A stretch of DNA of 64,000 bases, taken from positions 1,426,001 to 1,490,000 of the forward strand of contig NZ_JAGIOO010000001.1 in the NCBI RefSeq assembly GCF_017876755.1. The letters run 5' to 3'. The translations under genes and the position numbers were made by a program. Shown piece after piece: positions 8,064 to 42,170 of the stretch. Source of the DNA: Crossiella equi. Its GTDB lineage: Bacteria; Actinomycetota; Actinomycetes; Mycobacteriales; Pseudonocardiaceae. A model generated the notes under the pieces. It saw only the letters and a list, made by a program, of their open reading frames with translations, was not told where the DNA came from and made no database searches. Position 1 is the stretch's first letter. Every line of letters begins with the position of its first letter.

Positions 8064-8116
8064 CCTCGCGTCGCCTGTTCGCCGTCCCACCAGTCAGTGA
8101 TACAGGTCCAGCACGG

Positions 8117-8151: not shown

Positions 8152-8167
8152 GTGTACGCGCAGGGGG

Positions 8168-9073: not shown

Positions 9074-9290
9074 CGGCCTGCCCGCCGACGGCCCTCGCGC
9101 ACCCGGGCCAGGCCCCGGCAGGCGGCCAGCACCGAACGCTCGGAGTCCGGGTCGATGCCGATCACCCGGTTGTGGTGCATGTGCAGCAGGCTGCTCAGCA
9201 CACCGTCCACAAGGGACGGTTCCTGGGCGTGCACGGCTGCGCCGTAGGTCCGCAGCGCCTCGGTCCAGGCAGCGGTGCTCGTCGAAGGCC
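9070..9290 (-). pseudogene. C-terminal remnant of a LanB-type/SpaB_C dehydratase
   Basis: The frame ending at 9070 encodes about 65 residues with the signature end of lantibiotic dehydratases and thiopeptide-type proteins: WTEALRTYGAAV, then LLHMHHNRVIGIDPDSER, then a short helix. Further 5' (toward 9377) the similarity stops and no credible start codon or SD is seen. The monooxygenase gene ends at 9378. The stop overlaps the LanC-like start, as in an operon. I infer that a deletion removed most of a LanB gene. The upstream limit given is approximate. Confidence 0.6.
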
Positions 9291-9377
9291 AGGCGGCCCA
9301 CCCCGGCGACTGTGGGCACACCGGCCGCTGCGCGTGCTGACCCTGGCGCTGACCGCGTGGAGCTGGCGCGTGCTGGG

Positions 9378-10910: not shown

Positions 10911-11018
10911 GGCACGCTCCTTCCCTCACCTGGGAACACAGCGTGATCGCCCCGCCGTCCGGCAGCAACAACAGGGCCCGCTGAGCGGGACCCAACCAAC
11001 GCTGACAGCCCACCTGAC

Positions 11019-11150
11019 CGTGTTGGCCGATCGCGTACCCCGTGTTTGCCGCCCCAGTACCTCGTGTTGGCCGATCCCGTACGTCGTGTTGGCCCTCCCC
11101 GCACCCCGTGTTGGCCGATCGCGTATCCCGTGTTGGCTGGAACGGTCCCC
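11019..11150 (+). repeat. 22-nt tandem repeat block, six units (left block)
   Basis: Six units start at 11019, 11041, 11063, 11085, 11107 and 11129, exactly 22 nt apart. Each begins CGTGTTKGC(C/T). The second half is more variable, around GATCGCGTACCC. The period is not a multiple of three, so it is not coding, and there are no unique spacers. The same unit recurs in inverted orientation from 11193 to 11302. The block lies between the monooxygenase start (10910) and the end of the DUF4097 gene (11401). Confidence 0.85.
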
Positions 11151-11192
11151 CGCTTCGGCCAGCACCGAGCAGCCACCCCGACGGCTGGTACC

Positions 11193-11302
11193 AGCTGCGA
11201 TCTCGGCCAACACAACGCACTGATGCGGCCAACACGGGGTACGGGAACGACAAACACGGCGTGCGGGATAGGCCAACACGGGGTACCGGGTCGGCAAACA
11301 CG
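11193..11302 (-). repeat. 22-nt tandem repeat block, five units in inverted orientation (right block)
   Basis: Read on the minus strand, five units begin at 11302, 11280, 11258, 11236 and 11214 with the same YGTGTTKGYC core and exactly 22-nt spacing. Together with the left block they form an imperfect inverted repeat of about 284 bp around a 42-bp non-repeated centre (11151-11192). RNA from either strand could fold into a long hairpin. The pattern could also be a phased protein-binding array, since 22 nt is about two helical turns. Confidence 0.85.
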
Positions 11303-11400
11303 GCGAGCGGGTCGGGTTGGTTGGCCGGGGGACGGCCCCCTGCCGTCCCCCGGCCGGTGACCGGGACGCGTCCGCGACAGCGCGTCCCAGCGGGAACGGG

Positions 11401-14762: not shown

Positions 14763-16760
14763 TCAGAGGGCTCGTTCGCCGGGCAGGCCGAAGAAGTCGT
14801 GCCACTTCGCCCCGCCGAGGAAACCGGTCCCGGTGGACAGCGCCACGTACACGTCGGCGCTGGCGGTGTGGGTGAAGGTGACGACGTCGGTCTTGCCGTC
14901 CCCGTTGAAGTCGCCGACGTAGGGGAACTCCCCGGCGATGCCGAAGAAGTCCTGCCACTTCACCGAGGTCCCGGTGAAGGCGTTGGTCTTGTTCGAGTTC
15001 GCCACGTAGACGTCCCCGTTGGCGTCGTTGGTGAACGTGGCGATGTCCGCGGCCCCGTCCCCGTTGAAGTCGCCCAGCCGGGGCGCCTCCCGGCCGACGG
15101 CGAAGAACTCGTGCCACAGCGCGGGCGCCCCGAACCCGGCCCCGCTGGAGAACGCGACGAGCACGTCGGCGCGGGTGTCCTGGGTGAACACCACGATGTC
15201 GTCCTTGCCGTCACCGTTCACGTCGGCCACGCCCGGCGACTCCCCGGCGATGCCGAAGTAGTCGTGCCACTTCGCGGAGGGGCCGAAGCCGGATCCGTTG
15301 GACAGCGCGACGTAGACGTCCCCGAGCTGGTTGCGGGTGAACACGACGATATCGTCCTTGCCGTCGCCGTTGACGTCCCCGATCGCGGGCACCTCCCCGC
15401 CCAGGGCGAAGAAGTCGTGCCACACCCGGGCCTGCCCGAACCCGGTCCCCGTGGACAGCGAGACCATCGCGTCCGCCCTGGAGCCGTGGGTGAAGGTGAT
15501 GATGTCGTCCTTGCCGTCCCCGTTGAAGTCACCGGTCAACGGCGTCTCCCCGGCCGGGGCGAAGAACTCGTGCCACTTCCCGGACGGCCCGAACCCGGTC
15601 CCGGTGGACAGCGAGACGTAGACGTCGCCGAGCGAGTTCTGGGTGAAGGCCACGATGTCGTCCCGCCCGTCGCCGTTGAAGTCGGCCGAGGAGCCGGTGA
15701 ACACGTTGGCCGCGCCGCCCCCGTTGACCAGCTGCATGTAGTGCGCCCAGTTCCAGTGTGGACCGGGGTCGGTGTGGTCGTTGCCGGGTACCTCGTTGTG
15801 CCCCACGATGTTCGCCCGGGTCTTGGCGATGCCGTACCGGTCGGCGAGGTGCCGGGTGAGTGCGGCCGAGGACCGGTACATGGCGTCGGTGAACCAGGAC
15901 GGGTTGTTGACGAACCCCTCGTGCTCGATCCCGACCGACCGCGGGTTCCAGGACCGGGCATGGTAGGCGGTGTCGCCCTCCCGCACGGTCTGGGTGACCT
16001 CGCCGTCGGAGGAGCGGATGACGTAGTGCGCGCTGACCTTGGAGGTGGGGTTCTGGAACCAGCTGATCGACCCCGCGTAGGAACCCTGGGTCACGTGGAT
16101 GACGATCTTGTCGATCCGCGCGGACCGCCCGGCGGCGTAGTTGTTGCCGTGCGCGGGCGCCCACCGCGCGGGCCCGTAGTCGGCGCTCAGCACCCCGATG
16201 TCCGGAGTGGACGGTCGGGAGACCTGGCGCGGTGGCACGCTGACCCGCTCCCCGGCGGGGGTGCGGGCGTCCAGCCCGGTGCGCAGCAGCTCGAACACGG
16301 TGTCCGCGTAGGAGCTCGCCACCCCCGGGTCGCTCGCCCCGGAGTAGGCGGCCACCACGGGGTACCAGGCGGCGAGCCGGGTGCGGTCACCGAGGCCGTG
16401 CGCGTCGGCGAGGGCCCGCAGCACGGCGACGCCGCCGCGGATGTTGGCGCGGTCGTCGGCCCGCAGCGAGGCGGTGGACTCCCCGGTCAGCTCGGCGGCC
16501 TGCTCCAGGGTCCGCCGGGTGGGGTTGCTGACCAGGTGCATGACCCCGAACCCGTTGGCCTGGCTGGGTTCGCCGGCGTGGCCGTCCAGGTGGGTCTCCC
16601 CGTACCCCACGGCGACCGCGAGGTCGCGGGGCACGTCGAACTCGGCGCAGGCCCGCCCGAACGCGGCGTCCATGCCGTCGGCGGGGGCGGCGTGGGCGTT
16701 GGCGGTCAAGGACAGGGCTAACGCGAAGGCGGCCGCGAACAGCCGCGCACCAGCACGCAT
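14763..16760 (-). CDS. Secreted N-acetylmuramoyl-L-alanine amidase with six FG-GAP repeats
   Basis: A 665-aa exported wall hydrolase. A signal peptide (ARLFAAAFALALSLTANA) is followed by a helical domain (about 28-170), then an Amidase_2 domain (about 195-335) with zinc-site motifs IVIHVTQG and DHTDPGPHW and the GIEHEGF segment. The C-terminal half is six 51-residue FG-GAP/VCBS-like repeats, each with a D(F/V)NGDGxxD calcium-binding loop, probably a small beta-propeller for wall or surface binding. GGGAGAG precedes the ATG. The upstream gene ends 11 nt away and shares nearly identical repeats. Confidence 0.9.
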   Translation of the reverse strand: MRAGARLFAAAFALALSLTANAHAAPADGMDAAFGRACAEFDVPRDLAVAVGYGETHLDGHAGEPSQANGFGVMHLVSNPTRRTLEQAAELTGESTASLRADDRANIRGGVAVLRALADAHGLGDRTRLAAWYPVVAAYSGASDPGVASSYADTVFELLRTGLDARTPAGERVSVPPRQVSRPSTPDIGVLSADYGPARWAPAHGNNYAAGRSARIDKIVIHVTQGSYAGSISWFQNPTSKVSAHYVIRSSDGEVTQTVREGDTAYHARSWNPRSVGIEHEGFVNNPSWFTDAMYRSSAALTRHLADRYGIAKTRANIVGHNEVPGNDHTDPGPHWNWAHYMQLVNGGGAANVFTGSSADFNGDGRDDIVAFTQNSLGDVYVSLSTGTGFGPSGKWHEFFAPAGETPLTGDFNGDGKDDIITFTHGSRADAMVSLSTGTGFGQARVWHDFFALGGEVPAIGDVNGDGKDDIVVFTRNQLGDVYVALSNGSGFGPSAKWHDYFGIAGESPGVADVNGDGKDDIVVFTQDTRADVLVAFSSGAGFGAPALWHEFFAVGREAPRLGDFNGDGAADIATFTNDANGDVYVANSNKTNAFTGTSVKWQDFFGIAGEFPYVGDFNGDGKTDVVTFTHTASADVYVALSTGTGFLGGAKWHDFFGLPGERAL

Positions 16761-16771
16761 GGGACTCTCCC

Positions 16772-18241
16772 TCAGAACGCGGTTTCGCCGGGCAGGCCGA
16801 AGAAGTCGTGCCACTTGCGCCCACCCAGGAACCCGGTCCCGGTGGACAGGCCGACGTGCACGTCGGCGGAGTCGGTGTGGGTGAACACGACGATGTCGTC
16901 GCGCCCGTCCCCGTTGAAGTCCCCGACGTAGGGGAACTCCCCGGCCAGCCCGAAGAAGTCACTCCACTTCACCGAGGTCCCGGTGAACGCGGTGGTCTTG
17001 TTCGAGGTCGCCACGTACACGTCGGCGGCGGCGTTCCCGGTGAACGTGGCGATGTCGGCGGCCCCGTCCCCGTTGAAGTCCCCGAGCCGGGCCGTCTCCC
17101 GGCCGACGGCGAAGAACTCGTGCCACAGCGCGGGCGCCCCGAACCCCGACCCGGTGGAGAGCGCGACGAGCACATCGGCGCGGGCACCGTGGGTGAAGGT
17201 GACGATGTCGGCCCGCCCGTCCCCGTTCACATCGGCCACCCCGGGGGTCTCCCCAGCGATGCCGAAGTACTCGTGCCACTTGGCAGAGGGCCCGAACCCG
17301 GATCCGTTGGACAGCGCGACATAGACGTCCCCGAGCGAGTCGCGGGTGAACACGACGATGTCATCGCGACCGTCCCCGTTGACATCCCCGACCGCGGGCA
17401 CCTCCCCGGCCAGGGCGAAGAAGTCGTGCCACTTCCCGGCCTGCCCGAACCCGGTCCCCGTGGACAGGGCCACGATGGCATCGGCGCGCGCCCCGTGGGT
17501 GAAGGTGATGATGTCGTCCTTGCCGTCCCCGTTGAAGTCACCGGTCAACGGCGTCTCCCCGGCCGGGGCGAAGAACTCGTGCCACTTCCCGGACGGCCCG
17601 AACCCATTGCCTGTGGACAACGAGACGTGGACGTCCCCGAGCGAGTTCTGGGTGAAAACCACGACGTCGTCGCGCCCATCCCCGTTGAAGTCGGCGGGCG
17701 ACCCGGTGTAGACCCCCATGAGCCGCCGGGCCTCATCGATCATGACCCGAGCCCGGCCCTCGGCCTGGTCGTACCGCTCGGGACAGCAGGACCGCTGCAC
17801 GCTCTGCGCGAGCTGCCCGGCGGTGTACCCGGGAAAACGCCCCTCATTGGCCTGCGCACCCTCGAAGAACTCGTGGGCGGCGTAGCTGACGTTGAGGATC
17901 TGCTGGGGCGTCCCCCACCCTTGGCTGGGACGCTGCTGGAACACTCCGAGGGAGTCCTTGTCCCCGCAGTCGAGGTTGTTCATGCGGGACTCGACCCACC
18001 CGGCCTCAAACCCGGCGAGCAGGACCTTCTCGGACACGGACCGGGCAAGCCCGACCCGGTGCACGATCTTCAACACCTCAAGGCTGTGCGTGGTGGGAAT
18101 GCTGGCGCAGGCAAGCAACCCAAACCCAGGCTCAGGAAGCGAAGCCAAACCCGGGGGCGAAGCCCCGGCGGAGGAACCAACCAGGCCGAACAGCGTGACG
18201 ACAGCCGCCACCACCGCTCCGCCCCGAAGACGGAAACGCAT
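16772..18241 (-). CDS. Secreted lysozyme-like protein with six FG-GAP repeats
   Basis: A 489-aa exported protein, first gene of the operon that continues with the FG-GAP amidase and DUF4185 genes. After the signal peptide, residues about 40-165 form a lysozyme-like/transglycosylase-type module (ESRMNNLDCGDKDSLGVFQQRPSQGW, then SVQRSCCPERYDQ) common in actinomycete peptidoglycan enzymes. Six 51-residue repeats with D(F/V)NGDG loops follow. They are almost the same as those of the next gene, including at the nucleotide level, which points to recent duplication or gene conversion. Both proteins probably act together on the wall. Confidence 0.85.
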   Translation of the reverse strand: MRFRLRGGAVVAAVVTLFGLVGSSAGASPPGLASLPEPGFGLLACASIPTTHSLEVLKIVHRVGLARSVSEKVLLAGFEAGWVESRMNNLDCGDKDSLGVFQQRPSQGWGTPQQILNVSYAAHEFFEGAQANEGRFPGYTAGQLAQSVQRSCCPERYDQAEGRARVMIDEARRLMGVYTGSPADFNGDGRDDVVVFTQNSLGDVHVSLSTGNGFGPSGKWHEFFAPAGETPLTGDFNGDGKDDIITFTHGARADAIVALSTGTGFGQAGKWHDFFALAGEVPAVGDVNGDGRDDIVVFTRDSLGDVYVALSNGSGFGPSAKWHEYFGIAGETPGVADVNGDGRADIVTFTHGARADVLVALSTGSGFGAPALWHEFFAVGRETARLGDFNGDGAADIATFTGNAAADVYVATSNKTTAFTGTSVKWSDFFGLAGEFPYVGDFNGDGRDDIVVFTHTDSADVHVGLSTGTGFLGGRKWHDFFGLPGETAF

Positions 18242-18551: not shown

Positions 18552-18618
18552 GGGGTGTGGTGGGGCTGTTCCCAGGGCCGGACATCGCCAGGCCCTGGGA
18601 ACAGCCCCACCACACCCC
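18552..18618. repeat. Perfect 28-bp inverted repeat, 11-nt loop
   Basis: The arms at 18552-18579 and 18591-18618 are exact reverse complements (core GGGCTGTTCCCAGGGCC). Six T follow 10 nt later on the plus strand. The flanks are also partly mirrored: CGGCTGCGC occurs on both sides in opposed orientation. The quinone oxidoreductase ends at 18680, so the hairpin lies in its 3' region. It may be a terminator, but the arm length and mirrored flanks resemble a REP/MITE-type element. Confidence 0.75.
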
Positions 18619-30418: not shown

Positions 30419-30467
30419 TGGGGCAGCGTAGTCCCGGTTGTCGGTGGGGCGCGGTAGCTTGGCGCGC

Positions 30468-31457
30468 ATGCCGGAACCAGGCGTGCGCCAGTCAGCCGAA
30501 CCCGACCTGCTGAATGCCGCGCAACAGGACGACCAGGTCGCTTTCGGACAGCTCGTCGCGCCCCACCGCGCGGCCCTGTTCGGCTACTGCTACCGCCTGC
30601 TGGGCTCCACCCAGGACGCCGAGGACGCGGTGCAGGACACGTTGCTCAACGCCTGGCGCGGCATCGCGGGCTTCGAGGGCCGGGCCTCGGTGCGCACCTG
30701 GCTGCACCGCATCGCCACGAACCTGTGCCGCGACCGCGTCGCCGCCCGCCCGCGCCGCATCCTCACCTTCGACTACGGCCCCCCGGCACGCCCGGACGTC
30801 CGGATCGGCGAACGCGTCCTGGACCCGATCTGGCTGGAGCCCTGCCCGGACCCGGCCGGGCAGTACGAGCGCCGCGAGTCCCTGGAACTGGCGTTCCTGC
30901 TTGCGCTGCAACACCTCCCGGCCACCCAGCGGGCCGTCCTGGTGCTGCGCGAGGTGCTGGCCTTCACCGCTGCCGAGACCGCCGACGTCCTGGACACCAC
31001 GGTCCCCTCGGTCAACAGCGCCCTGCAACGCGCCCGCCGCACCCTGGCCGAACACACGGGAGAGCCTTCCCAGCAACAGGAACTGGCCACCCTCCCCGAC
31101 CGGGGCGCCCACCTGCTGACGGCCTTCCTGGACGCCCTGCACCGTGCCGACGTCGACGCCCTGGTCGACCTGCTCACCGAGGACGTCCGCTTCACCATGC
31201 CGCCCATGCCCTTCTGGTTCGACGGCCGCGCGGACGTCATCACCTTCCTGGTCGACGTGGTGGCGAAGGAGTCCTGGCGCCGCGTCCCCGTGCACGCCAA
31301 CGGCCAACTGGCCTTCGCCGCCTACCTGGACCGCGGCGAAGGCCACCGGCTGGTCGCGGTGGACGTGCTCACCGTGCGGGCCGGACGGATCCGCGGCATC
31401 ACCGGTTTCCTGGACAAGGCCACGCACGGGGTGTTCGGCCTGCCGCCCGCTACCTGA
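30468..31457 (+). CDS. ECF sigma factor with C-terminal SnoaL-like domain
   Basis: A 329-aa RNA polymerase sigma factor. Region 2 (AEDAVQDTLLNAWR, about 55-68, and RTWLHRIATNLCRDR) and region 4 (LPATQRAVLVLREVL, about 158-172, then VNSALQRARRTL) are complete. A SnoaL/NTF2-like domain (about 215-325) follows, as in SigJ/ECF41-related and SigX5-type factors, where it tunes sigma activity in place of an anti-sigma. It is divergent from the TenA-like gene. Its 3' end overlaps the end of the convergent septum-formation-like remnant, and its last bases are repeated 9 kb away beyond the Wadjet island. Confidence 0.92.
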   Translation: MPEPGVRQSAEPDLLNAAQQDDQVAFGQLVAPHRAALFGYCYRLLGSTQDAEDAVQDTLLNAWRGIAGFEGRASVRTWLHRIATNLCRDRVAARPRRILTFDYGPPARPDVRIGERVLDPIWLEPCPDPAGQYERRESLELAFLLALQHLPATQRAVLVLREVLAFTAAETADVLDTTVPSVNSALQRARRTLAEHTGEPSQQQELATLPDRGAHLLTAFLDALHRADVDALVDLLTEDVRFTMPPMPFWFDGRADVITFLVDVVAKESWRRVPVHANGQLAFAAYLDRGEGHRLVAVDVLTVRAGRIRGITGFLDKATHGVFGLPPAT

Positions 31458-31466
31458 GCAGCGACC
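31432..31466 (+). repeat. 35-bp direct repeat, left copy (island boundary)
   Basis: An exact copy of 40428-40462. It includes the last codons and stop of the sigma gene (TTCGGCCTGCCGCCCGCTAC) and the overlapping stop of the convergent remnant. The two copies bracket about 9.0 kb containing the whole Wadjet operon. Confidence 0.9.
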
Positions 31467-31610
31467 AGCTGCACGAACCGGCGCTGGCGGACACGATGCG
31501 GTGCACCGCCTTCCAGACCCGCTCTCGTCGGTCTCGGACAGGTCGGCGGGATTCGTGCTGCCCGCGACGATGTCAGGGCACCGGGCGTTGCCGCCGATGG
31601 TGGTTCCGGA
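31450..31610 (-). pseudogene. Degraded C-terminal copy of a septum-formation-like gene
   Basis: Read on the minus strand this region encodes RCPDIVAGSTNPADLSETDE, which aligns with RCPAIVAVSTDVAALSETDE of the copy at 40446-40951 (14 of 20 identical). It then loses about 30 codons and shifts frame before a shared SLLR-stop end. The copy is therefore broken. It lies directly against the sigma gene, in the same convergent layout as the right-hand copy. The 5' limit is approximate. Confidence 0.7.
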
Positions 31611-31619
31611 CAGCCCGCG

Positions 31620-31762
31620 CCATCGCCGATGGCGCACCGGCCAAGGCTGCCCCGCCGCGGGCGAAGGACCTCCGCACCGAACCGGGTTCACTCCGCCACC
31701 GGGCCGACGCTCTGGACCTGTTGGCCGGAATCAGCGACGAGCCGGTCGCCAACCAGCGCTGA
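31620..31762 (+). pseudogene. Probable 3' fragment of an unidentified gene at the left junction
   Basis: A plus-strand frame ending at 31762 with coding-like third positions encodes a short helical tail (RTEPGSLRHRADALDLL, then AGISDEPVANQR). No start is seen, and the frame loses coding character near 31620. It converges on jetC. I read it as the leftover 3' end of a gene cut at the island edge; the family is unknown. Confidence 0.35.
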
Positions 31763-31778
31763 CTCCAGTCCAGCCGGG

Positions 31779-34700
31779 CTACTCCTCCGCCACCAGATCC
31801 GCGCCGGTCCAGACGAAGCGGGCCGTGGTGACCGCGTCGTCGCCGCCGGTGATGAGCTGGTGGATCGCCACCCCGCTGAGTTCCGCGTAGGTGCACCACT
31901 CGTGATCCGACGTGAGCATCAGGTCGAGGTCCAATGCGGACAACAGGGCGAAGACCTGGCCCCGGTTGTTGCTGTCCACGCCGACGAACACCTCGTCGAG
32001 CAGGATGATCCGGGGCGCGGACGGCACGGCCTGGTAGTGGGCGGCCACCGCGGCGAACAGGGGGAGGTGCAGGGCGATCGCCTTCTCGCCACCGGAGAGC
32101 GCACCGTGCAGCTTCCTGGTGAGCAGCTGCCAGCCCGCGCCGTTGGCCCGGTCCACCTTCACCACGAACTGGTGCCAGGCGGTGTAGTCGAAGACCTGGG
32201 CGAGCTGCTGCTCCCAGCTGGTCGCCGTGTCGTCCGCACGTGCCTGCTCGATGCGCTCGCGGAAGAACCGGTGCAGGGACTCCCGGTCCGCCTCGGTCAG
32301 GTGCACCGGGTCCTTGAGCAGCAGGTCCCTCGCTGTCCTGGTCCCGGGTGGGAGATCGGCGGCCACCTGCCAGACGAGCTGCACCGCCACCTTCGACGCG
32401 GTGCGCACCCGTTCCAGGCGCGCGTTCATCGCGTCCACCAGCTCACCCGCGGCCCGGATGCGGGCGGCGAGGTGCCGCCTGGTGTCGCCGGTCAGGGTCT
32501 GGTCGAACAGCTGCCGTTCCCGCTCGGTGATGTCGTCTCGGCTCTGCTCGGCGTCGGCGCGCAGCACGGTCAGCAGTTCGGCCGCGCCCACCCGGACTCC
32601 GTCCACCACCGCGGTCAGCAGCTGGACGTCCTCGTCCGTTTCCAGGTCGAGGTCCGCACGGGCGCTCAGCGCGGTGCGGCACTCGTGCACGGACTCCGAC
32701 AACCGGTGCGCCGCGTCACCGAGGTTGGCCGGTGCGTGCGGCAGCGTGGGCCACGCCTGCACGACCAGGCGAGCGGTGTCCAGTGCGGCCCGCACGCCCT
32801 CGGAGGCGGCCAACAACCCCTGGAAGTGGGCGAGATCGGGGAGCTCGCTGTCCTCGGGCAAGGTGCTCGCGCACAGGTGCCGGAACCGGCGCGCCGCGAC
32901 GTCCCGGGTGCTGGCCGCCTCGTCCCGGGCCGCGACGTCGGAGCTCCGCCGTTGTCCGAGCGCACCGAGCTGTTCGGCGAGGGAGCTCACCTCGGCCCGT
33001 GCCCTGCGGAGGTTCCCGGAGATCGCGGTCAGGCGCTCGCGAGCCGTGGCCAGTTCCGCGAGCACCTCCTGGTATCCGACACCGACCGTGCTCTCCACGG
33101 CGGTCAGTCGCGACTCGCGGGCACGCAGTTCTCCCTTGGCAGCTGTCGCCTCCGCTTCCCGTTTGGCCGCGATCGCCTCGGACCGTGCCGCCTGGCGGGC
33201 CAGCGCCTCGGCGGTGGCCCGTGCGGTGACCAGGTCGCGGTGGGCCTCAAGCCACAGCTGTGCCTGCTCCTCGAACCGCTTCACGGCCTGGCCGAGCTTG
33301 TCCAGCCCCTCGCTCTCCGCGGGCACCCCGTGTTCGACGGCGGCGGCGCTCAGCTCCCGCTGGGCCGCGCCGACCTCCCGCTCCCGGTCGGCCAGCGCCT
33401 CGAGGCGTCTGCGTACCACGCCGTCCGCGGTGACCACCGCCAGTTCGGCGCGATCCAGCACCTCCTTGGCGGTTCGTACGCGGTCGTGGGGCGGGCAGGC
33501 CGCACGCTCGTCCCGCAACGCCGCCCGGCGGGCCTCGACCACGTCCCGGCGCTTGGCCAACGCGGCCAGTTCGAGATCGGTTTTCCCGATCTCGGTGCGG
33601 AGCAGCACGGCGCGGCGCTGCCTGGCCTGGGCCCGAGCCGCCGCACCGATGTGGGCGACGTGCGGTTTGCCCCAGCTGCCCCATGCCGTGGCCAGCCGCC
33701 AGCTGCCGTCCGCACCGATCGCTGCCGGGTGCGCGGCGGGTAGCCGCTCGGCGAAGGCGATACCGCCGAGCAACCGGGTCACCACCTCGGCGGCCACCGG
33801 GCTGTCCGGCTCCGGCTCCAGCACGGCCAGCAGCGAGCCAGCCGGGGCAGGTGAGACGGCGTCCGGTTCGGCGAAGACGTCGTGCCCGGCCACCACGCCG
33901 GTCGCGCCCACCCAGGCATCCAGCAGACCGGCGGCCTGCAAAGCGGCCTCCACGGCGGCCTGCGTGCCTTCCGGTACCCCGTCGACGAAGCGCACCAGTC
34001 GCCACAGCGGCGCACCGGCCAGGGCCGTGCGGTCGGTGGTCCGGGTGGCCGGTGCTTCGGGCGGCAGGTCCTGCTCCCCCTCGACCTGCGCCAGCTCCGC
34101 CACGAGCCCGTCTCGCCGGGCTCCCACCTCACGCTGCCCGGCCTCAGCGAGCAGGTCCTCGCGGAGCAGTTCGGCCTCCACCGGCGCGGCGAGGTCCGCC
34201 ACGTGCCGCAGCAGCCGGGCCTCGTCCTCGACGAACGCGCTGAGGCCGGTGGGCCGCAGTTCCCGGCAGGCCAGCGCCCACTCGCGCAGCTCGCCGGCGA
34301 ACCGTTCCATTTCCACCGCGTAGCCCTGCTCGGCGGTACCCTGGTCCGACTTCGCGGCGGCGCGTTCGGTGCGGGAGTGCTCCAGGTCCTGCTCGGCCTG
34401 CTCGCGCCGCCCCACCGCGTGGCCGTGCTTGGCCAGGGCCGCCCGCACCGCCTCGATCTGTTCGAGTCGCCCCCGGACCGCCGCGCGGAACAGCCTCCGG
34501 GCCGTCTCCGGTTCGGTGACCAGCAGGGCGGCCAGTTCCTCGTGCACGGCGCCCAACCCGGCCCTGGTCGCGGCCTGCCGGGTCTCCGCCGCTTGGGAGT
34601 CCGCCACAAGCTCTCGCCCGGCCGCTGCCTCGGTGGCCCTCGTGTGGGACTCCGTGTCCTCGTCGGCGTGGCCGCGTTGTACGGCCGCGTCCTTGACGAG

Positions 34701-35804
34701 ATCTGCGGCACGTTCACGGGCCTTGGCCACGGCCTGCCTCAGCCGGTCCAGCTCGCGGCCTTCCTTGTACTCATCGCTGTCGACCAGCCCTTGGATCTGT
34801 GCCCCGGTCTCCTCCTCCTGCCCCTCCAGGGTCTCGACCAGGGTTTCCGTCTCCTGCTTGGTCAGCACGACCTGGTCGTGTTCCTCGGCCGAGGCTCGCG
34901 CGGCGGCGGAGAGCCGGTCCAGCTCGGCGGTGGCCGAGGTCAGCGCGGCCGCCGCCGCGCGCAGCACCCGGCGGGCGTAGGTCCGCTGCCGCTGTGCGAG
35001 CTGGCGGGCCGCTTCGACCTCCGCGTCCAGACCGGCCAGCCGTTCCCGGTGCCGGTCCAGCCGTTCGAACCCCTCGGCCAGGTCGGCGACCTCGCCCTGG
35101 CCCAGCGGTGGCAGGGCTCGGGAGAGCAGTGTGGACAGCAGCGCCGGGTCCAGCCGTTGGGACAGCTTGGGCGTGCGCAGCTGGAGCAGTGCGGTGATCA
35201 GCGCGTCGTAGCGCTGTTCTGGCAATCCGGGGAAGAGCGCGGCGCGCACGGCGGCGCGGTAGTCGGTGGCGTTCGCGTGCACCGTTCCGCGCTCACCGAG
35301 AGCGGCCTCCAGTGCGGGCTTGGTCAGCGGCGCACCCGAGTCGTTGACCAGCAGCAGACCGTCCGGCTCGCCGATGCGGAGCTCGGTGGTGAAGTAGTCG
35401 GCGTGCACCCCGGTGGTGTGCGTGGTGGCCGCCAGCCGCACCCCGCAGCAGAACCACGTGCCCGGCTCCCCCGGCAGGTGGAACTCCAGCCAGGTGTAGC
35501 CGACCCGGGTGGTGCCGGAGGCCCCGTCCCCCATGAGGTTCCAGTGCATGGTTCGTTCGCTGGTACCGAAGGTGGACAGCCGGTTGGCGCGCAGGTTCGC
35601 GTCGAACAGGAAGGGCAGCAGCAGTTCCAGTGCCTTGGACTTGCCGGTCCCGTTCTCCCCGCGCAACAGCAGCCTGCCGTGGTGGAACTCGAACACCTCG
35701 TCGTAGTAGCGCCAGACGTTGAGGATGCCCGCCCGGGTCGGTACCCAGCGTGGCTGCCGACCGGGCTCCGGGGCCCGGTGCCGGGGCAGTTCGGTCACGG
35801 TCAC
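31779..35804 (-). CDS. jetC: Wadjet type II SMC-like ATPase JetC (TIGR02680)
   Basis: A 1341-aa MukB/SMC-like ATPase, the motor of the Wadjet anti-plasmid system that loops DNA and licenses cutting of small circular DNA. Walker A is GENGTGKS (Lys55), preceded by FHHGRLLLR. Long coiled-coil arms occupy about 270-1180. The C-terminal ABC signature is LSGGEKAIALHLPLF (about 1235), Walker B is IILLDEVFVGVD (about 1268), and the D-loop follows. All ATPase motifs are intact. The GTG start is in a GTGA overlap with jetB and is backed by AAGGAGGA. It is the last gene of the operon. Confidence 0.93.
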   Translation of the reverse strand: MTVTELPRHRAPEPGRQPRWVPTRAGILNVWRYYDEVFEFHHGRLLLRGENGTGKSKALELLLPFLFDANLRANRLSTFGTSERTMHWNLMGDGASGTTRVGYTWLEFHLPGEPGTWFCCGVRLAATTHTTGVHADYFTTELRIGEPDGLLLVNDSGAPLTKPALEAALGERGTVHANATDYRAAVRAALFPGLPEQRYDALITALLQLRTPKLSQRLDPALLSTLLSRALPPLGQGEVADLAEGFERLDRHRERLAGLDAEVEAARQLAQRQRTYARRVLRAAAAALTSATAELDRLSAAARASAEEHDQVVLTKQETETLVETLEGQEEETGAQIQGLVDSDEYKEGRELDRLRQAVAKARERAADLVKDAAVQRGHADEDTESHTRATEAAAGRELVADSQAAETRQAATRAGLGAVHEELAALLVTEPETARRLFRAAVRGRLEQIEAVRAALAKHGHAVGRREQAEQDLEHSRTERAAAKSDQGTAEQGYAVEMERFAGELREWALACRELRPTGLSAFVEDEARLLRHVADLAAPVEAELLREDLLAEAGQREVGARRDGLVAELAQVEGEQDLPPEAPATRTTDRTALAGAPLWRLVRFVDGVPEGTQAAVEAALQAAGLLDAWVGATGVVAGHDVFAEPDAVSPAPAGSLLAVLEPEPDSPVAAEVVTRLLGGIAFAERLPAAHPAAIGADGSWRLATAWGSWGKPHVAHIGAAARAQARQRRAVLLRTEIGKTDLELAALAKRRDVVEARRAALRDERAACPPHDRVRTAKEVLDRAELAVVTADGVVRRRLEALADREREVGAAQRELSAAAVEHGVPAESEGLDKLGQAVKRFEEQAQLWLEAHRDLVTARATAEALARQAARSEAIAAKREAEATAAKGELRARESRLTAVESTVGVGYQEVLAELATARERLTAISGNLRRARAEVSSLAEQLGALGQRRSSDVAARDEAASTRDVAARRFRHLCASTLPEDSELPDLAHFQGLLAASEGVRAALDTARLVVQAWPTLPHAPANLGDAAHRLSESVHECRTALSARADLDLETDEDVQLLTAVVDGVRVGAAELLTVLRADAEQSRDDITERERQLFDQTLTGDTRRHLAARIRAAGELVDAMNARLERVRTASKVAVQLVWQVAADLPPGTRTARDLLLKDPVHLTEADRESLHRFFRERIEQARADDTATSWEQQLAQVFDYTAWHQFVVKVDRANGAGWQLLTRKLHGALSGGEKAIALHLPLFAAVAAHYQAVPSAPRIILLDEVFVGVDSNNRGQVFALLSALDLDLMLTSDHEWCTYAELSGVAIHQLITGGDDAVTTARFVWTGADLVAEE

Positions 35805-37012
35805 CGGTTCTCCTCCTTGGTACCGATCGCGGTCACCGCGTACCTGGCCGCCGCGGGCAGCGGGGTCACCACTGCACCGTCGACCCGAATCAGCCCGAAC
35901 CCGCTCAGCACCGCCAGCGCGTCGACGACCAGCCCGGCCGCCCCACCCTCGCCCTGGTAGGCCTTGGCCCACGCGGGCTGGCTGTCCAGCAGCGCCCGCA
36001 TGGCCTGCTCCAGCTGCTCCCGGAGCATCGGCCCGGCCATGTGGTCCAGCAGGTGCAGGGCCGCAACCTTCGCGGTGCTGCCGTCGTCCGGGAAGCGGCT
36101 GTCCGTGGCGATGCCGTCCGGGTCGACGAACATCAGTCCCTCCCCGCGTTCCTCCAGCAGGAACCCGCCTTCCTCGGCGGCCCGGCGCAGCAGCTGCCTA
36201 CCGGTCGGCGACTGGAGGTAGGCGCGCTCGTCGGCGGTCAGGTCCTCGAGGTAGACCACCGGGTCGTCGACCAGTCTGCGGAAGACCGAGTGGCGCGACC
36301 ACAGGTTGCGCTGGACCTCTGATACCGAGGCGGCGCCGTAACGCCGTTCCCTGGACAGGTCGGACAGCAGCTCAGGAAATCGCGCGGGCACCTCCGTGAC
36401 GGGCACGGCGAGCTGGGACACCCCGTTGGGTGCGGCGAGCAGCCGCATGAGCAGGGCCGCGTCGACCCGGTACAACACCTTCGCCTCACTGGAGTCCACA
36501 TAGGACTCGGTGGCGCCGTCCACGACCTCCACCACACCGAGGGATTCCAGCAGGCGCAACGCGTCCACGAACGCGCGTCGCTCCTCCCGGACCGAGGTGG
36601 CGAACGGCGGGAGCACCGGATCGGCCGCGGCCGCGCGGGCGACCTGGTCGGCGAGCAGCCCGATGGTGGTCACCGGCCTGGTGAGCAGCTCGGCAGCAGC
36701 CAAGCAGAGCAGCACGTAGCGCCTGCGGTCGAACGGCGCGCTACCCGAGCGGCGGCGTCGCGGTGGCCTGCTGGCGTCGGTCATCACCCGGACCTTGGCC
36801 AGCCGCGCGTACCCCAGCCGCGGCTCCACCACCAGCGACCAGCCGCAGTAGTACTCGAACCACTTCGTGATCGGGTCCCGGCGGCGGCGCACCAGCTCGA
36901 AGGACTCCGGCGCCGACCGCTCGTGCAGGAGTGGGCTCGCCAGCAGGACGCGGATACCCCGCGCGACCTCCTCGCGTTCGGCGACCACCAGCTGGTTGGC
37001 GAGGTTGCTCAT
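35801..37012 (-). CDS. jetB: Wadjet type II protein JetB (TIGR02678, DUF2398)
   Basis: A 403-aa protein of the DUF2398/TIGR02678 family, the kite-like or MukE-like partner that binds the SMC subunit. Typical features are the N-terminal EREEVARGIRVLLASPLL, FEYYCGWSLVVEPRLGYARL, FDRRRYVLLCLAAAELL and the later YGAASVSEVQRNLW. No catalytic motif is expected. It starts in an ATGA overlap with jetA and ends in a GTGA overlap with jetC, so stoichiometry is probably set by coupling. Confidence 0.92.
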   Translation of the reverse strand: MSNLANQLVVAEREEVARGIRVLLASPLLHERSAPESFELVRRRRDPITKWFEYYCGWSLVVEPRLGYARLAKVRVMTDASRPPRRRRSGSAPFDRRRYVLLCLAAAELLTRPVTTIGLLADQVARAAAADPVLPPFATSVREERRAFVDALRLLESLGVVEVVDGATESYVDSSEAKVLYRVDAALLMRLLAAPNGVSQLAVPVTEVPARFPELLSDLSRERRYGAASVSEVQRNLWSRHSVFRRLVDDPVVYLEDLTADERAYLQSPTGRQLLRRAAEEGGFLLEERGEGLMFVDPDGIATDSRFPDDGSTAKVAALHLLDHMAGPMLREQLEQAMRALLDSQPAWAKAYQGEGGAAGLVVDALAVLSGFGLIRVDGAVVTPLPAAARYAVTAIGTKEENR

Positions 37013-38550
37013 TGCCGGTGCGCCCCCGCCCGCCTGGGCCGCCGATCACCGACGGCACGGATCTCGATCTCGTAGTCCGGCCCCGCGAACTCGCCCCTCG
37101 GCGTGGTCAGCCGGGCGACCGAACCGTCGGCCGGGTGACGCAGCAGAATCTCGATCTTCCCGTCCGCGGTGCTGCTCCGCCGGGCACCCGAGGCCGTCGG
37201 GCTGTTCGCCAGCGCCCGGCCGAGCAGTTCGAGCAGTCGCTCGAAAACGTTGTGGGGCAGGCGCGCGAAGCTGGACAGGCGTACCGGGCCGCCGGTGCCG
37301 AGCATGCTCCACGCGGCCTCGATCTCGGCACGCTCGGCCCGGGCCTGCTCGGCGCGTGCCGCCTTGAGCTCGCGAACATCACGCACCCGGCCGGTACGGC
37401 TGAACCGCTCGGTGCGGCCTGCGGTGCGCAGCAGCGCCGACACCTCGACCGGCGGGGCCTGCGCCCAGGTCGCGGACGAGCTCACCAGCTCCGGGTCCGG
37501 GTGGCCGAGGTGGGCGTGCCGCGCGGAGCCGAGCCCGAACACCGTCGCCCACAGCCGGTGCAGGTCCTCGTGCGTGGGCAGGACGGTGAACCACCTGGCC
37601 AGCTCGCGGAAGTCGGTCACCGCGCTGCTGGCCCGCCGCCGGGACTCGGTGATCCTGTCCAGCACCTGGAGCAGGGTGATGATCGCCCGTCGCGCCACGG
37701 CGTGCAGCTGGTCCACCCGGGGCCGGGTGCCGTCCGAGGGCAGGAACCACGCCCGCAACCCCTCCCACCGCGCCCGCCGCTGCGCCAACCAGGCGGTACC
37801 GGGATCGGCACCGCCGAGCCGCGGCAGCTCGGCACCGAGCAGCGCCCGGTGGTGCAGGCGGCCCACCCCGTGCTCCTCGGCCTGCCGGATCCGGCTCTCG
37901 ATGGCGTGGGTGCGCTGGTCCAGGTTGGTCAGGAACTCCTCCAGGTAGGCCACGGTGGCTGTCTTGACCTCGTGGAAGGTGGACAGCTCGGCACCTTCGG
38001 CACGCAGCAGGCGTTGGAGCTCACCGTTGAACTGCTTGGTGTTGTTCCGCAGTGCGTCGAGGTGGCCTTCCAGCTCCATCAGCGTGCTGTAGACCCGCCG
38101 GTCCGGCCCGTTGTCCTCCAGCAGCGCCACGAGATCGCCGAGGCGGTCGGAGATCGCGTCGAGCACCGCGGTCTGCAACGCGCCGGTGGAGGCGAGCACG
38201 GACACGGCGTGCAGCACCCCGGCGAAAGCGGCCTCACCCCGCCTGGTCAGCGAGTACTGGAGATTGCGTCGTTCGTACTCACCCGCCGTGCGGTAGTTCT
38301 CCGCGTGGTTCTGGATGACGTCGACGAGCTGCCATTCGTGCAGCTGCCTCAGCACGGCGGAGAGCAGCTCGTCGTCGAGGGCCTCGAGCCAGCCGACGGC
38401 GCGCAGCCTAGCGCGGACATCGTCCAGGCTCAGCGCTGTCTCCAACCGGTCGTTGGCCTCGCCGAAGGCGTGCAGCACCGCGACGTAGAGCCCCGCACGG
38501 TCACCGGTGGTGAACCGGAACATCTCCGGTGGGACGCGAATGGGTTCCAC
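37009..38550 (-). CDS. jetA: Wadjet type II protein JetA (TIGR02677, DUF2397)
   Basis: A 513-aa member of DUF2397/TIGR02677, the kleisin-like or MukF-like subunit that bridges the JetC heads. Recognisable parts are the N-terminal winged-helix region (ALDDELLSAVLRQLHEWQLVDV), the helical middle (LMELEGHLDALRNNTKQFN) and a second basic part with RWEGLRAWFLP. The start is GTG with GGGGGAG upstream. It follows jetD after 22 nt and overlaps jetB by 4 nt. Confidence 0.92.
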   Translation of the reverse strand: MEPIRVPPEMFRFTTGDRAGLYVAVLHAFGEANDRLETALSLDDVRARLRAVGWLEALDDELLSAVLRQLHEWQLVDVIQNHAENYRTAGEYERRNLQYSLTRRGEAAFAGVLHAVSVLASTGALQTAVLDAISDRLGDLVALLEDNGPDRRVYSTLMELEGHLDALRNNTKQFNGELQRLLRAEGAELSTFHEVKTATVAYLEEFLTNLDQRTHAIESRIRQAEEHGVGRLHHRALLGAELPRLGGADPGTAWLAQRRARWEGLRAWFLPSDGTRPRVDQLHAVARRAIITLLQVLDRITESRRRASSAVTDFRELARWFTVLPTHEDLHRLWATVFGLGSARHAHLGHPDPELVSSSATWAQAPPVEVSALLRTAGRTERFSRTGRVRDVRELKAARAEQARAERAEIEAAWSMLGTGGPVRLSSFARLPHNVFERLLELLGRALANSPTASGARRSSTADGKIEILLRHPADGSVARLTTPRGEFAGPDYEIEIRAVGDRRPRRAGAHRQ

Positions 38551-38572
38551 CTGGTAGTTCTCCCCCTTGGAC

Positions 38573-39715
38573 TCACCCGCACGAGTGATGTGCGGCCAGG
38601 TCGTCCAACAGCAGGTCTACCACACGTTCCTCGCTCACCGTGACATCCCGCTCGCGCAGGGCCGCGGCGAGACCGGCGTCCCACGGCGCCTCGGTGACCC
38701 GTCCGACCCCGAGGCCGGACGGTTGCCGGGCGAGTCCGGTGAGGTAGTCGGCGGTGGTCATCCGCCAGGGCCGAGCGCCGGTGCGGGAGAGCAGCAAGGC
38801 CGCGATGCGGATGCCCTCACCGTCGAAGTCGCCGTGGTAGCGCAGCTCGCAGCCAGCCGCAGCGAGCTGCCGCAACATCAGGATCCCGGCACTGCTGGGC
38901 CAGCCCGAGGTGCAGACCAGCGGCGGGCACCCGGTGCCGAACCTGGCGAGGGCGAGGGCGAGCACGCTCGGGTTCTCCACCACCCACACCACCTCCGGCA
39001 GGCCCACGGACCAGGCCGCGGCCCGCACCTGGGCGAGGGTCAGCGCGGCGGCGTGCCCCGCATCAGCGCACACCCGCAGCACCGTCCCCACCACGTCCGG
39101 CGCCGGCGGCCGCAGGCCCGCGACGAGCACCACCGAGGACAGGGCGTCGTCAGCGACCCCGGCCAGCTCCCACAGCCGACGGCGTGCGGCCGCGTCCACC
39201 GGCACCGGCAGCTCGTAGACCTCGGCCAGGGCACGCTGCACCAGCCCGGCACACCGGGTGCCATCGTCCAGCGCGTGCGGGTCGTGCAGCACCCGCTCGG
39301 CGAGCACCGGCAGCGGCACCCCGGCGGCGGGCAGCTCGGCGAGCACCCGAAGGGCCCGCTCGACCAGCTGGCTGGTGCGTTCGACCGAACCGTCGACCAG
39401 TCCGGCCCGCCGGGTGGCCTCGACCCAGGCGAGCAGCGCGGGCTGCGCGGCCACAACGGGATGCCGTTCGACCCGGGCCCAGAACGCGTCCCGCTCCGCG
39501 CCCGCCGCGGCCCGGTCCGCGGCCCGGTCGCCGATGGGCCCCACGAACCGGGCCACCGCCTGACGGAGGTCGATACCGGCGGCCTCGGTCAGGACCTGGT
39601 CGAGCTTCGCGACTGGGACCGTCACGACCTCGGGTGGCAGCCGGTCGAGTCCCAGCAGATCGGCGAGCGCGATGCGCTGTTCCTCCGTCAGGGGCCCGAC
39701 GCGGACCGACCGCAC
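38573..39715 (-). CDS. jetD: Wadjet type II nuclease JetD (TIGR02679, DUF3323/DUF2399)
   Basis: A 380-aa Toprim-type nuclease subunit that cuts trapped circular DNA. The Toprim Glu is in WVVENPSVL (about 246) and the DxD metal site in YHGDFDGEGI (about 294), so the active site is intact. The first usable canonical start is GTG at 39715. However, about 20 codons further upstream in the same frame read LSPALLPLWQAAHHRL, which matches the usual N terminus of this family. That stretch follows directly after the in-frame TGA of the preceding gene. Either a CTG at 39784 starts translation, or the annotated form lacks its N-terminal helix. Confidence 0.9.
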   Translation of the reverse strand: MRSVRVGPLTEEQRIALADLLGLDRLPPEVVTVPVAKLDQVLTEAAGIDLRQAVARFVGPIGDRAADRAAAGAERDAFWARVERHPVVAAQPALLAWVEATRRAGLVDGSVERTSQLVERALRVLAELPAAGVPLPVLAERVLHDPHALDDGTRCAGLVQRALAEVYELPVPVDAAARRRLWELAGVADDALSSVVLVAGLRPPAPDVVGTVLRVCADAGHAAALTLAQVRAAAWSVGLPEVVWVVENPSVLALALARFGTGCPPLVCTSGWPSSAGILMLRQLAAAGCELRYHGDFDGEGIRIAALLLSRTGARPWRMTTADYLTGLARQPSGLGVGRVTEAPWDAGLAAALRERDVTVSEERVVDLLLDDLAAHHSCG

Positions 39716-39790
39716 CGGCTGCCCAGAGGACAGCCGGTGGTGCGCGGCTTGCCAGAGCGGCAGAAGTGCGGGTGAGAGGTCCAGAGCGGG

Positions 39791-40294
39791 TCAGCCCCTA
39801 CCAGGGTTGACCAGGACCTGCTTGTCCCAGCGCAACGCGGGCTGCCGTGCCGGCTCCAGCCCGGTGGCCAGAGTGGCCAGCGCTTCCCGGGGGAAAACCG
39901 CTGCCGGAGTGCCGACGGTGGCCGACGGCTCCCCCATGCGGAGGTAGTCCTCAAGGAAGTCCCAGCCCCGGGCCGAGCGCCGCCCGCGGAGCGTGTGCGT
40001 GGGGTCATCCACTGTGGTCGCGGCGGCCCCCGCCATCCTGGGCAAGGCCTCCTGGGCCGCCTCGACCTGCCAGAACGGCATGGTGCCGTCGAGCGGCTCT
40101 TGGTCCAAGTGGACGAAGAACAGGTCGGCACGTGCGGCGGCGAGTGGCAGCATGATCCGTCCGGCGAGGCCGTCCTCGCCCGGCAGGCGCCACGTCTCCT
40201 CCGCATCGCGAACCCGGCATTCCAGGTACTGCGACATGGCTGGCGGTAGATCAGTCGTGGGATCGCGGTAGCTGTCCAGCGCGGTGCGGCTCAC
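39791..40294 (-). CDS. Unknown 167-aa protein, first gene of the Wadjet operon
   Basis: I do not recognise this family. The protein is soluble and acidic, with Asp/Glu-rich segments and no membrane helix or known catalytic motif. GGAGG 6 nt before the GTG is one of the best SD sequences in the island. The stop lies in the same frame as jetD, with 25 sense codons between the TGA and the jetD GTG. Standard type II Wadjet operons have four genes, so this is an extra. It could be a regulator, an accessory factor or a passenger. Confidence 0.7.
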   Translation of the reverse strand: MSRTALDSYRDPTTDLPPAMSQYLECRVRDAEETWRLPGEDGLAGRIMLPLAAARADLFFVHLDQEPLDGTMPFWQVEAAQEALPRMAGAAATTVDDPTHTLRGRRSARGWDFLEDYLRMGEPSATVGTPAAVFPREALATLATGLEPARQPALRWDKQVLVNPGRG

Positions 40295-40430
40295 TCCAGA
40301 CCTCCTTCGCCGATCGTGCCCAGGTTGTCAGCGTATTCCCGGTACCGACAGCTGGGGCTGGTCAGCCCGGATTCGGAGAGATCCACCCGCCCAGCGAGAG
40401 AGTCCTCCCCGCCCGGGTCACTCGGGTTGT
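40291..40430 (-). pseudogene. Truncated 3' fragment at the right island junction
   Basis: A minus-strand frame ending at 40291 reads SLAGRVDLSESGLTSPSCRY and then REYADNLGTIGEGGLE. Its stop overlaps the next gene's GTG (GTGA), as in a real operon. The frame has no start; upstream it runs straight into the 35-bp repeat and the septum-formation-like gene. I infer that its 5' part was lost at the junction. It could instead be chance coding in the leader. Confidence 0.45.
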
Positions 40431-40462
40431 TCGGCCTGCCGCCCGCTACCTGAGCAGCGACC
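40428..40462 (+). repeat. 35-bp direct repeat, right copy (island boundary)
   Basis: Identical to 31432-31466. Here only the last 24 bases of the sigma coding sequence are present, joined to unrelated sequence on the left, while the septum-formation-like gene continues to the right. This is the copy expected if an island entered, or recombined into, the sigma/septum-gene 3' junction. Confidence 0.9.
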
Positions 40463-40951
40463 GGTGCCAGGTGCCGGTGTCGTTGAGCACGATGCAGTGC
40501 ACGTCGCGGTGCCCGCGCTCCCAGCTCGTCCCGTCCTGGCCGAGGAAGAGGAGCTCGTCGGTCTCGGACAGGGCTGCCACGTCCGTGCTGACCGCCACGA
40601 TGGCGGGACACCGCTCCTTGGCCTTCGGGGTGACCGCCTCCATGTCGGCGGGCTGCTCGCGGTTCTCGGCGCGGTAGCTGCCCACGACCTGGGCGTTGTG
40701 CGGCTCGGTGCACGGAGTCAGCCGCATCGGCTGATCGTTCACCAGCACCGGCAGGTGGGCGAGGCGAGGCCCGGTCTGCGGACCCGGACCAGCACCACGA
40801 CGGCCACCACGAGCACGACCGGGATGAGCAGCGGGACGAGCCCGCCGATCCCGAGCCACAGCGCCCAGGCCGCCAGACGGGCGGTCCCCCGGTCCGGCTG
40901 GCCGTGCGCGCCGGAGCTGCTCGTCTCCACCTGGTCGTGCGTCTCCCCCAT
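40446..40951 (-). pseudogene. Septum-formation-family-like membrane protein, frameshifted
   Basis: The N-terminal part from ATG 40951 encodes a charged start and a membrane helix (LWLGIGGLVPLLIPVVLVVA), then runs to a stop at 40739. The C-terminal domain continues in another frame from about 40790, with LTPCTEPHNAQVVGSYRAEN, then ERCPAIVAV and HCIVLNDTGTWHRSLLR. The Cys-Glu-Pro-His motif is typical of the septum-formation (Septum_form) domain. The usual linker is missing, so an out-of-frame deletion near 40760 is likely. A sequencing error is possible. Confidence 0.65.
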
Positions 40952-41021
40952 GACCCCATCTCCCCCCAACGAGTGTCAGGAGGAGAAAAGGGCCTCGGGT
41001 GCTCCTGCGGGCGAATTCGGG

Positions 41022-42170
41022 CTACAGTCCCAGCTGCCGCGCGATGAGCATGCGCTGCACCTCGCTGGTGCCCTCGCCGATCTCCAGGATCTTCGCGTCG
41101 CGGTAGAAGCGGCCCACCGGGTACTCGTTCATGAAGCCGTACCCGCCGAAGACCTGGGTGGCGTCGCGGGCGTTGTCCATGGCCGCGTTGGAGGCCACGA
41201 GCTTGGCGATCGCGGCTTCCTTCTTGAAGGGTTCGCCGCGGAGCATGCGGGCGGCCGCGTGGTGGTAGGCCAGGCGGGCGGTGTGGGCCCGGGCCTCCAT
41301 GTCGGCGATCTTGAACTGGATGGCCTGGTACTCGCCGATCTTCTGGCCGAAGGCCTCGCGTTCGCCCGCGTAGCGGACCGACTCGTCCACGCAGCCCTGG
41401 GCCAGGCCGACCGACAGCGCCGCGATGGCGATGCGGCCCTCGTCCAGGGTCTGGAGGAACTGGGCGTAGCCCCGGCCCCGCTCGCCCAGCAGGTTCTCGG
41501 CCGGGACGCGGACGTCGTCGAAGGAGAGCTCGTGGGTGTCGCTGGCGTTCCAGCCGACCTTGGAGTACTTCTTCGCCACGGTGAAGCCCGGGGTGCCGGA
41601 GGGCACGATGATCGTGCTGATCTCCTTGCGGCCGTCCGGCTTCTTGCCCGTCACCGCCGCCACCGTGACAAAACCGGTGATGTCGGTGCCGGAGTTGGTG
41701 ATGAACGCCTTGCTGCCGTTGATCACCCACTCGTCGCCGTCCAGACGGGCCGTGGTGCGCATGCCCGAGGCGTCCGAACCGCTGCCCGGCTCGGTCAGGC
41801 CGAACGCGCCCAGCACCTCGCCCGAGCACAGCTGCGGCAGCCACTTCGCCTTCTGCTCCGGCGTGCCGAAGCGGTGCAGCGGCATCGCGCCGAGGGAGAC
41901 CCCGGCCTCCAGGGTGATCGCCACCGAGGAGTCCACGCGCGCCAGCTCCTCCAGGGACAGGCACAGCGCGAAGTAGTCACCGCCCATGCCGCCCTCGGAC
42001 TCCGGGAACGGCAGCCCGAACAAGCCCATCTGGCCCATCTTGCGCACCAGCGGGTACGGGAACTCGCAGTCCTCGTAGTACTGGCCGATCACCGGCGCGA
42101 CCTCGTCCCGGGCGAACTCGGCGACGGTCTTGCGGAGGGCCTCGTACTCCTCGCTCAGCTGCTCGAACAT
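41022..42170 (-). CDS. Acyl-CoA dehydrogenase
   Basis: A 382-aa FAD enzyme that introduces the alpha-beta double bond in acyl-CoA. FAD/substrate motifs are GAFGLTEPGSGSDASG (about 125-140), FITNSG, and the C-terminal FGGYGFMNEYPVGRFYRDAK and GEGTSEVQRMLIAR. It starts 1 nt after the stop of the biotin carboxylase gene. With the two carboxylase subunits upstream, the likely role is branched-chain (leucine-type) acyl-CoA degradation. The exact chain cannot be proved from sequence. Confidence 0.93.
   Translation of the reverse strand: MFEQLSEEYEALRKTVAEFARDEVAPVIGQYYEDCEFPYPLVRKMGQMGLFGLPFPESEGGMGGDYFALCLSLEELARVDSSVAITLEAGVSLGAMPLHRFGTPEQKAKWLPQLCSGEVLGAFGLTEPGSGSDASGMRTTARLDGDEWVINGSKAFITNSGTDITGFVTVAAVTGKKPDGRKEISTIIVPSGTPGFTVAKKYSKVGWNASDTHELSFDDVRVPAENLLGERGRGYAQFLQTLDEGRIAIAALSVGLAQGCVDESVRYAGEREAFGQKIGEYQAIQFKIADMEARAHTARLAYHHAAARMLRGEPFKKEAAIAKLVASNAAMDNARDATQVFGGYGFMNEYPVGRFYRDAKILEIGEGTSEVQRMLIARQLGL

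Follow-up and report, generated by a model that had tools for sequence, protein, structure and literature searches.

How does an anti-plasmid defence cassette come to lie between two identical copies of a gene junction with no recognizable mobile element around it? A 64,000-nucleotide stretch of the Crossiella equi genome (contig NZ_JAGIOO010000001.1, positions 1,426,001 to 1,490,000; hereafter the window) raises this question, as an intact-looking Wadjet type II cassette at 31779-39715 lies between the two copies of an exact 35-bp direct repeat. Wadjet is an SMC-like anti-plasmid system that restricts circular plasmid DNA. The repeat, TGTTCGGCCTGCCGCCCGCTACCTGAGCAGCGACC, is found at 31432-31466 and 40428-40462, 8,996 bp apart start-to-start. 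It is the duplicated overlap of two convergent gene ends, each copy comprising the overlapping 3' ends of a sigma factor gene and a Septum_form-like gene. A sequence-only reading of this DNA had pointed to the repeat around a Wadjet island at a convergent junction and to broken gene pieces at both inner edges. Both descriptions are borne out: a Septum_form remnant lies at the left edge, and fragments of PDC-M02A and PDC-M02B, a candidate defence pair in PADLOC, at the right. We tentatively favour a history in which the cassette was acquired horizontally and is probably functional, the repeat being the footprint of integrase-free recombination whose edges later eroded.

The four jet genes are adjacent on the minus strand and are transcribed in the order D, A, B, C. 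All are of type II, with JetA2, JetB2, JetC2, and JetD2 as the best PADLOC matches over nearly the full profiles. JetD (38573-39715; DUF3323 and DUF2399, Toprim-like) matches JetD2 with an E of 1.4e-130 over profile positions 37-420 of 423, JetA (37009-38550; DUF2397) matches JetA2 with an E of 1.1e-263, and JetB (35801-37012; DUF2398) matches JetB2 with an E of 1.4e-128. The SMC-like JetC (31779-35972) scores 1361 bits against JetC2. Its real start is probably further in, because the start of the open reading frame overlaps JetB. JetC contains GENGTGKS at 105 (Walker A), LSGGE at 1292 (signature), and IILLDE at 1322 (Walker B-like), which we take to be ATPase motifs, while JetD carries a DFD at 296, presumably the acidic Toprim-like motif. 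As judged from these sequence features, the cassette is probably functional.

JetA was matched in 105 other genomes of the family. We fetched 20-kb regions around 15 Wadjet loci, hand-picked and mostly from the top of that list, and all 15 have the same four genes in the D-A-B-C order. Only the edges of the cassette are unusual in C. equi. None of the 15 regions has a sigma, Septum_form or PDC-M02B match at E<0.05, and PDC-M02B and the Septum_form-like gene were rejected as habitual partners of Wadjet. The best JetA homologue, from another genus, is 80% identical, and other genera account for all of the top five matches outside the genus (77-80%). JetA relatives are also found on 17 plasmid records, the best at 67%. 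The Septum_form-like protein is on no plasmid record and in no viral contig searched, and the viral contigs searched also lack the 35-bp core. Carriage of the cassette by a plasmid or virus was rejected on these grounds.

To place the cassette in its genus, the window was compared with four congeners (G001-G004), one genome per species. In all four, the gene that best matches sigma (70-71%) has the match to the acyl-CoA dehydrogenase (95%) as its neighbour, so the neighbourhood is found in five of five genomes, with five different spacings. Measured between aligned blocks, which are about 83% identical between species, the interval is 9.6 kb long in the window; it is 0.9 kb in G001, 6.5 kb in G002, 4.0 kb in G003, and 4.2 kb in G004. 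No JetA match was found in any congener at E<=1e-60, making C. equi the only one of the five genomes with JetA. The segment between the same conserved genes is replaced, with contents that differ in all five. Genes in the congener intervals were called by a simple script based on codon composition, as opposed to a trained gene finder. With that proviso, G002 encodes a thioesterase, an SfLAP-family protein, an AI-2E transporter, a small membrane-like protein, and a GH15 enzyme, together with two small genes that read as lipoprotein-like, one of them without a Pfam match. By resemblance to the G002 genes, G001 has a thioesterase-like frame, and G004 has relatives of the SfLAP, AI-2E, and GH15 genes as well as small uncertain frames. 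The contents of these three intervals look metabolic or transport-related as predicted from the sequences. None of the G002 interval genes (thioesterase, SfLAP, AI-2E, GH15) has a counterpart elsewhere in the window at E<=0.1. G003 encodes a family-less protein and an NB-ARC/TPR protein. The latter (L023:7607-9730) is 707 aa long and has no PADLOC match. An exact empty site was not found among the four congeners.

On the simple reading of this comparison, the cassette would have been gained in the lineage of the window, and acquisition into a variable interval is supported. The sequence-only reading had proposed that the island was inserted or recombined in without a visible integrase. The lack of a JetA match in the congeners, their different interval contents, and the lack of a recognised integrase speak for that part of the claim; repeated use of the junction as a site is unproven. 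Other contents at the same site, which it had suggested looking for, were seen in four of four congeners. A single-copy sigma/Septum_form junction without an island, for which it had also suggested a search, was found in none of the 390 family genomes, a set with a single strain of this species.

A second difference was noted on the other side of the sigma gene. Septu type I genes lie between the TENA-like and sigma genes of G002 (L022:2077-4179) and G004 (L024:3992-4723). The matching models are PtuA1 and PtuB1 in G002 and PtuB1 in G004, where the PtuB gene alone was tested. At this position the window has 52-85 bp between aligned blocks.

Is the repeat more than a coincidence? The family was scanned for the repeat pattern in 390 genomes and the genus in five, C. 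equi included in both. Allowing up to 3 mismatches, TGTTCGGCCTGCCGCCCGCTACCTGAGCAGCGACC has two copies in the C. equi genome and none in the four congeners or the 389 other family genomes. Among exact direct repeats of at least 18 bp in the window (25 of 36 listed), it is the third longest. The two longer ones, of 113 and 51 bp, both belong to two paralogous genes for repeat proteins at 14.7-17.6 kb. To gauge chance, we sampled 300 pairs of 800-bp stretches at random with a 9-kb spacing and kept the 235 that neither reached beyond the window ends nor touched 13.0-18.5 kb. The longest exact word was at most 15 bp in 234 of the 235 pairs. The remaining pair gave 35 bp and presumably landed on the focal repeat itself. 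The repeat around the segment thus exceeds chance, yet the conserved edges of the focal interval share only a 9-bp word, and the focal test that yielded 35 bp was centred on the already known repeat.

The two copies differ in what surrounds them. On the left is a gene for a sigma factor of the extracytoplasmic function (ECF) type with a SnoaL-like C-terminal domain (30438-31457, plus strand; Sigma70_r2, Sigma70_r4_2, SnoaL_2), the conserved left border. Its stop codon (TGA) ends at 31457 inside the left copy, which consists of the last 26 bp of the gene and 9 bp further. Directly beyond, at 31467-31600 on the minus strand, is a decayed C-terminal remnant of a Septum_form-like gene, whose frame stops at the sigma gene end and which has an internal 34-bp offset. 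Its alignment with the right-hand gene scores 60; the highest score among 2000 shuffles was 32. The right copy, the second exact copy of the 35 bp, holds the stop codon (TAG, 40446-40448) of the Septum_form-like gene at 40446-40969 on the minus strand (PF13845, E 4.5e-9). The N-terminal membrane part (40739-40969) and the C-terminal part (40446-40859) of this gene are in different frames, and it is itself probably a frameshifted pseudogene, as predicted from its reading frames. The conserved right border, an acyl-CoA dehydrogenase gene (41022-42170, minus strand), lies 560 bp past the right copy.

Across the core, identity is 35 of 35 positions and falls to 25 of 40 in the adjoining 40 bp on the right (15 differences). 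The best stretch on that side, 67 bp at 78%, is shifted against the core by 34 bp. The measured divergence is 30 of 107 sites. The codon just left of the core is CTC in the right copy and in all four congener sigma genes, and CAC in the sigma gene of the window, a detail that is suggestive only. Under uniform decay, 35 unbroken identities are improbable (0.75^35 = 4e-5, a post hoc figure for sequence of which parts may be under selection). Recombination between diverged copies at a short identity would give full identity in the core and an immediate drop on the right. In the history we tentatively prefer, incoming DNA with a Septum_form-like gene end would have recombined at the core with the resident copy, with no integrase involved. 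The left side would then consist of the resident sigma gene, the core, and the remnant of the incoming gene, and the right side of incoming DNA, the core, and the resident gene. The edges, with an older candidate defence operon (PDC-M02) among them, would have been worn down by later deletions. We infer both the recombination at the core and its order relative to the arrival of the cassette. Repeats of this kind have been linked to variable DNA before: in the portion of Touzain et al. 2010 available to us (PMC2884548), 10-18% of the variable segments in three species are flanked by repeats, and homologous or illegitimate recombination between repeats is offered, as speculation, to explain part of the variability.

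Several observations weigh against recombination at the core. The congener versions of the interval have no edge repeat, their longest common words of 10-12 bp being at the chance level. Donor DNA or an empty junction was not found in the family and order genomes or the plasmid and viral sets searched. To the left of the core, similarity between the copies is not significant (score 12; 1638 of 2000 shuffles as high), and an incoming copy of the sigma gene beyond the core is thus not shown. The differences right of the core are distributed over codon positions 1, 2, and 3 as 8, 4, and 3 in the stretch beside the core. In the further stretch at 31524-31590 they are 2, 5, and 8, a lean to the third position that, in this stretch alone, speaks for the preferred history. 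Taken together they are even (10, 9, and 11), a spread that decay in place would explain at least equally well. In addition, most of the repeats in the available portion of PMC2884548 (66-94%) are shorter than 30 bp, and for those replication slippage is favoured there.

Decay in place belongs to another possible history, which we consider somewhat less likely. Here the sigma/Septum_form junction would have been doubled locally by slippage or unequal exchange, PDC-M02 and later Wadjet would have arrived separately between the two copies, and the left Septum_form copy would have decayed. Besides the even codon-position spread, the 34-bp offset and frame break in the left Septum_form copy suit it, and so does the nested damage at the right edge. 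The PDC-M02A fragment is cut near the right repeat and PDC-M02B stops early beside JetD, and because of these two breaks more than one event probably took place in the region. The abrupt change from 35/35 to 25/40 identity is hard to obtain by uniform decay.

It is unlikely that the 35 bp is instead the attachment core of a tyrosine-recombinase element targeting the overlapping 3' ends, its integrase lost or acting in trans. An exact core that keeps the stop codons of both genes, has sharp edges, and occurs as a single pair in the genome would suit such an element, and the closest Septum_form relative, in L152, is about 1.4 kb from a putative tyrosine recombinase gene. No integrase was recognised among the searched genes and fragments of the 9 kb, however, and the core has no perfect inverted segment of at least 5 bp and is absent from the other family genomes and the viral contigs searched. 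Nor is the element's own end expected to hold the decayed body of a target gene, and the mid-gene cut in PDC-M02A near the edge also argues against integration. Still less likely, and in our view very improbable, is the more specific proposal that the 3'/3' overlap serves as the attachment core of an integrase-less defence cassette that may be moved by a recombinase encoded elsewhere, with insertion sparing both gene ends. We also regard it as improbable that the repeat is there by coincidence and has nothing to do with how the cassette was gained, the interval being one of many multi-kilobase differences between distant species. The abundance of such differences in the window and the mere 9-bp word at the conserved edges of the focal interval agree with a coincidence, but the repeat closely brackets the cassette and both edge relics, and exact direct repeats this long are otherwise found only in one paralogous gene pair. 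Two other origins were rejected. A transposon target-site duplication does not fit, as the 35 bp is gene sequence and similarity continues on one side; no transposase was recognised among the searched genes and fragments of the 9 kb. Attachment at a tRNA gene was dismissed after a tRNA scan of the window came back empty.

To determine how unusual the site is, we surveyed the other variable intervals of the window. Counting the focal one, 11 intervals show a difference of 1 kb or more against at least one congener (10 if two neighbours are merged). The focal interval exceeds all others in length and in its number of length states; other prominent variable segments, of 5 kb each, are at 6.4-11.4 kb and 13.7-18.7 kb. 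Edges were tested for 19 other intervals, and within 400 bp of the aligned-block ends, a range that would miss deeper repeats such as the focal right copy, no common exact word exceeds 13 bp. The repeat sets the focal case apart because the other intervals do not exceed 13 bp and 234 of 235 random pairs do not exceed 15 bp. The sequence-only reading had suggested that the junction may mark a reusable hotspot. With 11 variable intervals in the same 64 kb and no edge repeat in any congener interval, the case for a special or reusable hotspot is weak. Rather than a new mobile element, the locus resembles the usual patchwork of gene gain.

The locus belongs to a known kind, repeat-flanked variable segments. 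Like those in the available portion of PMC2884548, it is a chromosomal segment that varies between genomes, has conserved genes on both sides, and is enclosed by a short direct repeat. It differs from them in that species rather than strains are compared, the 35-bp repeat is longer than most there and is set back 560 bp from the conserved right border, and one copy runs into a decayed homologue. According to the same portion, a single-copy relative without the segment was seen for only part of such loci. Similar to the defence hotspots of Escherichia coli, as described in the part of PMC10121019 available to us, defence genes lie between conserved flanks with other contents in relatives. The islands there are defined by at least 10 genes and by flanking genes that are adjacent in at least one genome, whereas the present locus has fewer genes, five genomes, and no exact empty site. 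Unlike an integrase-type genomic island, it has no recognised integrase or integrase relic among the genes and fragments searched, and no other user of the core or empty target was found in the family genomes and viral contigs searched. The locus illustrates one way for a standalone Wadjet cassette to reside in a genome with no recognisable mobile element: within a variable interval, between copies of a duplicated gene overlap, and beside the relics of another candidate defence operon. Should sister strains reveal core-to-core exchange, the locus would offer a clean natural case of defence being gained and lost through short repeats. As the evidence stands, it is an ordinary, well-preserved case.

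The relics next to JetD are those of PDC-M02, a pair named in no paper of the literature searched. PDC-M02B (39791-40294, minus strand) retains 167 codons, has internal gaps, and has lost its C-terminal part, compared with 376, 382, and 385 codons in the homologues fetched. What remains of PDC-M02A, whose gene lies upstream of its partner PDC-M02B in relatives, is a C-terminal fragment at 40291-40386, also on the minus strand. Alignments of 23-38 residues with the upstream frame show identities of 65% in L172, 57% in L189, and 45% in L190. In L189 and L190 the pair comprises a small gene of 185 or 191 codons and a large one of 382 or 385. The large gene of L172 runs to 376 codons, and where its small partner starts is uncertain. 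A common EQFSL stretch lies near the start of the small PDC-M02 protein.

The Septum_form-like gene is rare. With C. equi included, matches were found in two of five genomes of the genus (1e-3), four of 297 of the family (1e-10), and two of 377 of the order (1e-12). Relatives elsewhere in the family are at most 43% identical, and the four congeners have no match at the focal site. Given these rare matches, the gene was rejected as an ancestral neighbour of the sigma gene. Of 80 loci with a sigma relative, only L060, apparently the same stretch as L152, has a Septum_form relative, about 4.5 kb off. This pair is divergent instead of convergent, and we do not take it as the same arrangement. The closest Septum_form relative (43%) and both its neighbours, the recombinase-like gene and the sigma relative, fall within L152:4198-12561.

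On the left, a short open tail at 31601-31763 (plus strand) follows the Septum_form remnant and is possibly a gene fragment. It matches no family, and only three of 119 other genomes gave matches, with unconvincing E values of 0.002-0.009. Elsewhere in the window, the 5-kb segment at 6400-11400 is without an aligned counterpart at this position in any congener, where the gap is -11 to 188 bp. Two adjoining paralogous genes at 14763-18241 have exact sequence in common, in stretches as long as 113 bp at a distance of 2,009 bp, and lie inside a 5-kb segment that has another length in all four congeners. About 300 bp outside this pair, at 18552-18618, is a perfect 28-bp inverted repeat with an 11-bp loop, which may be a terminator or another hairpin.

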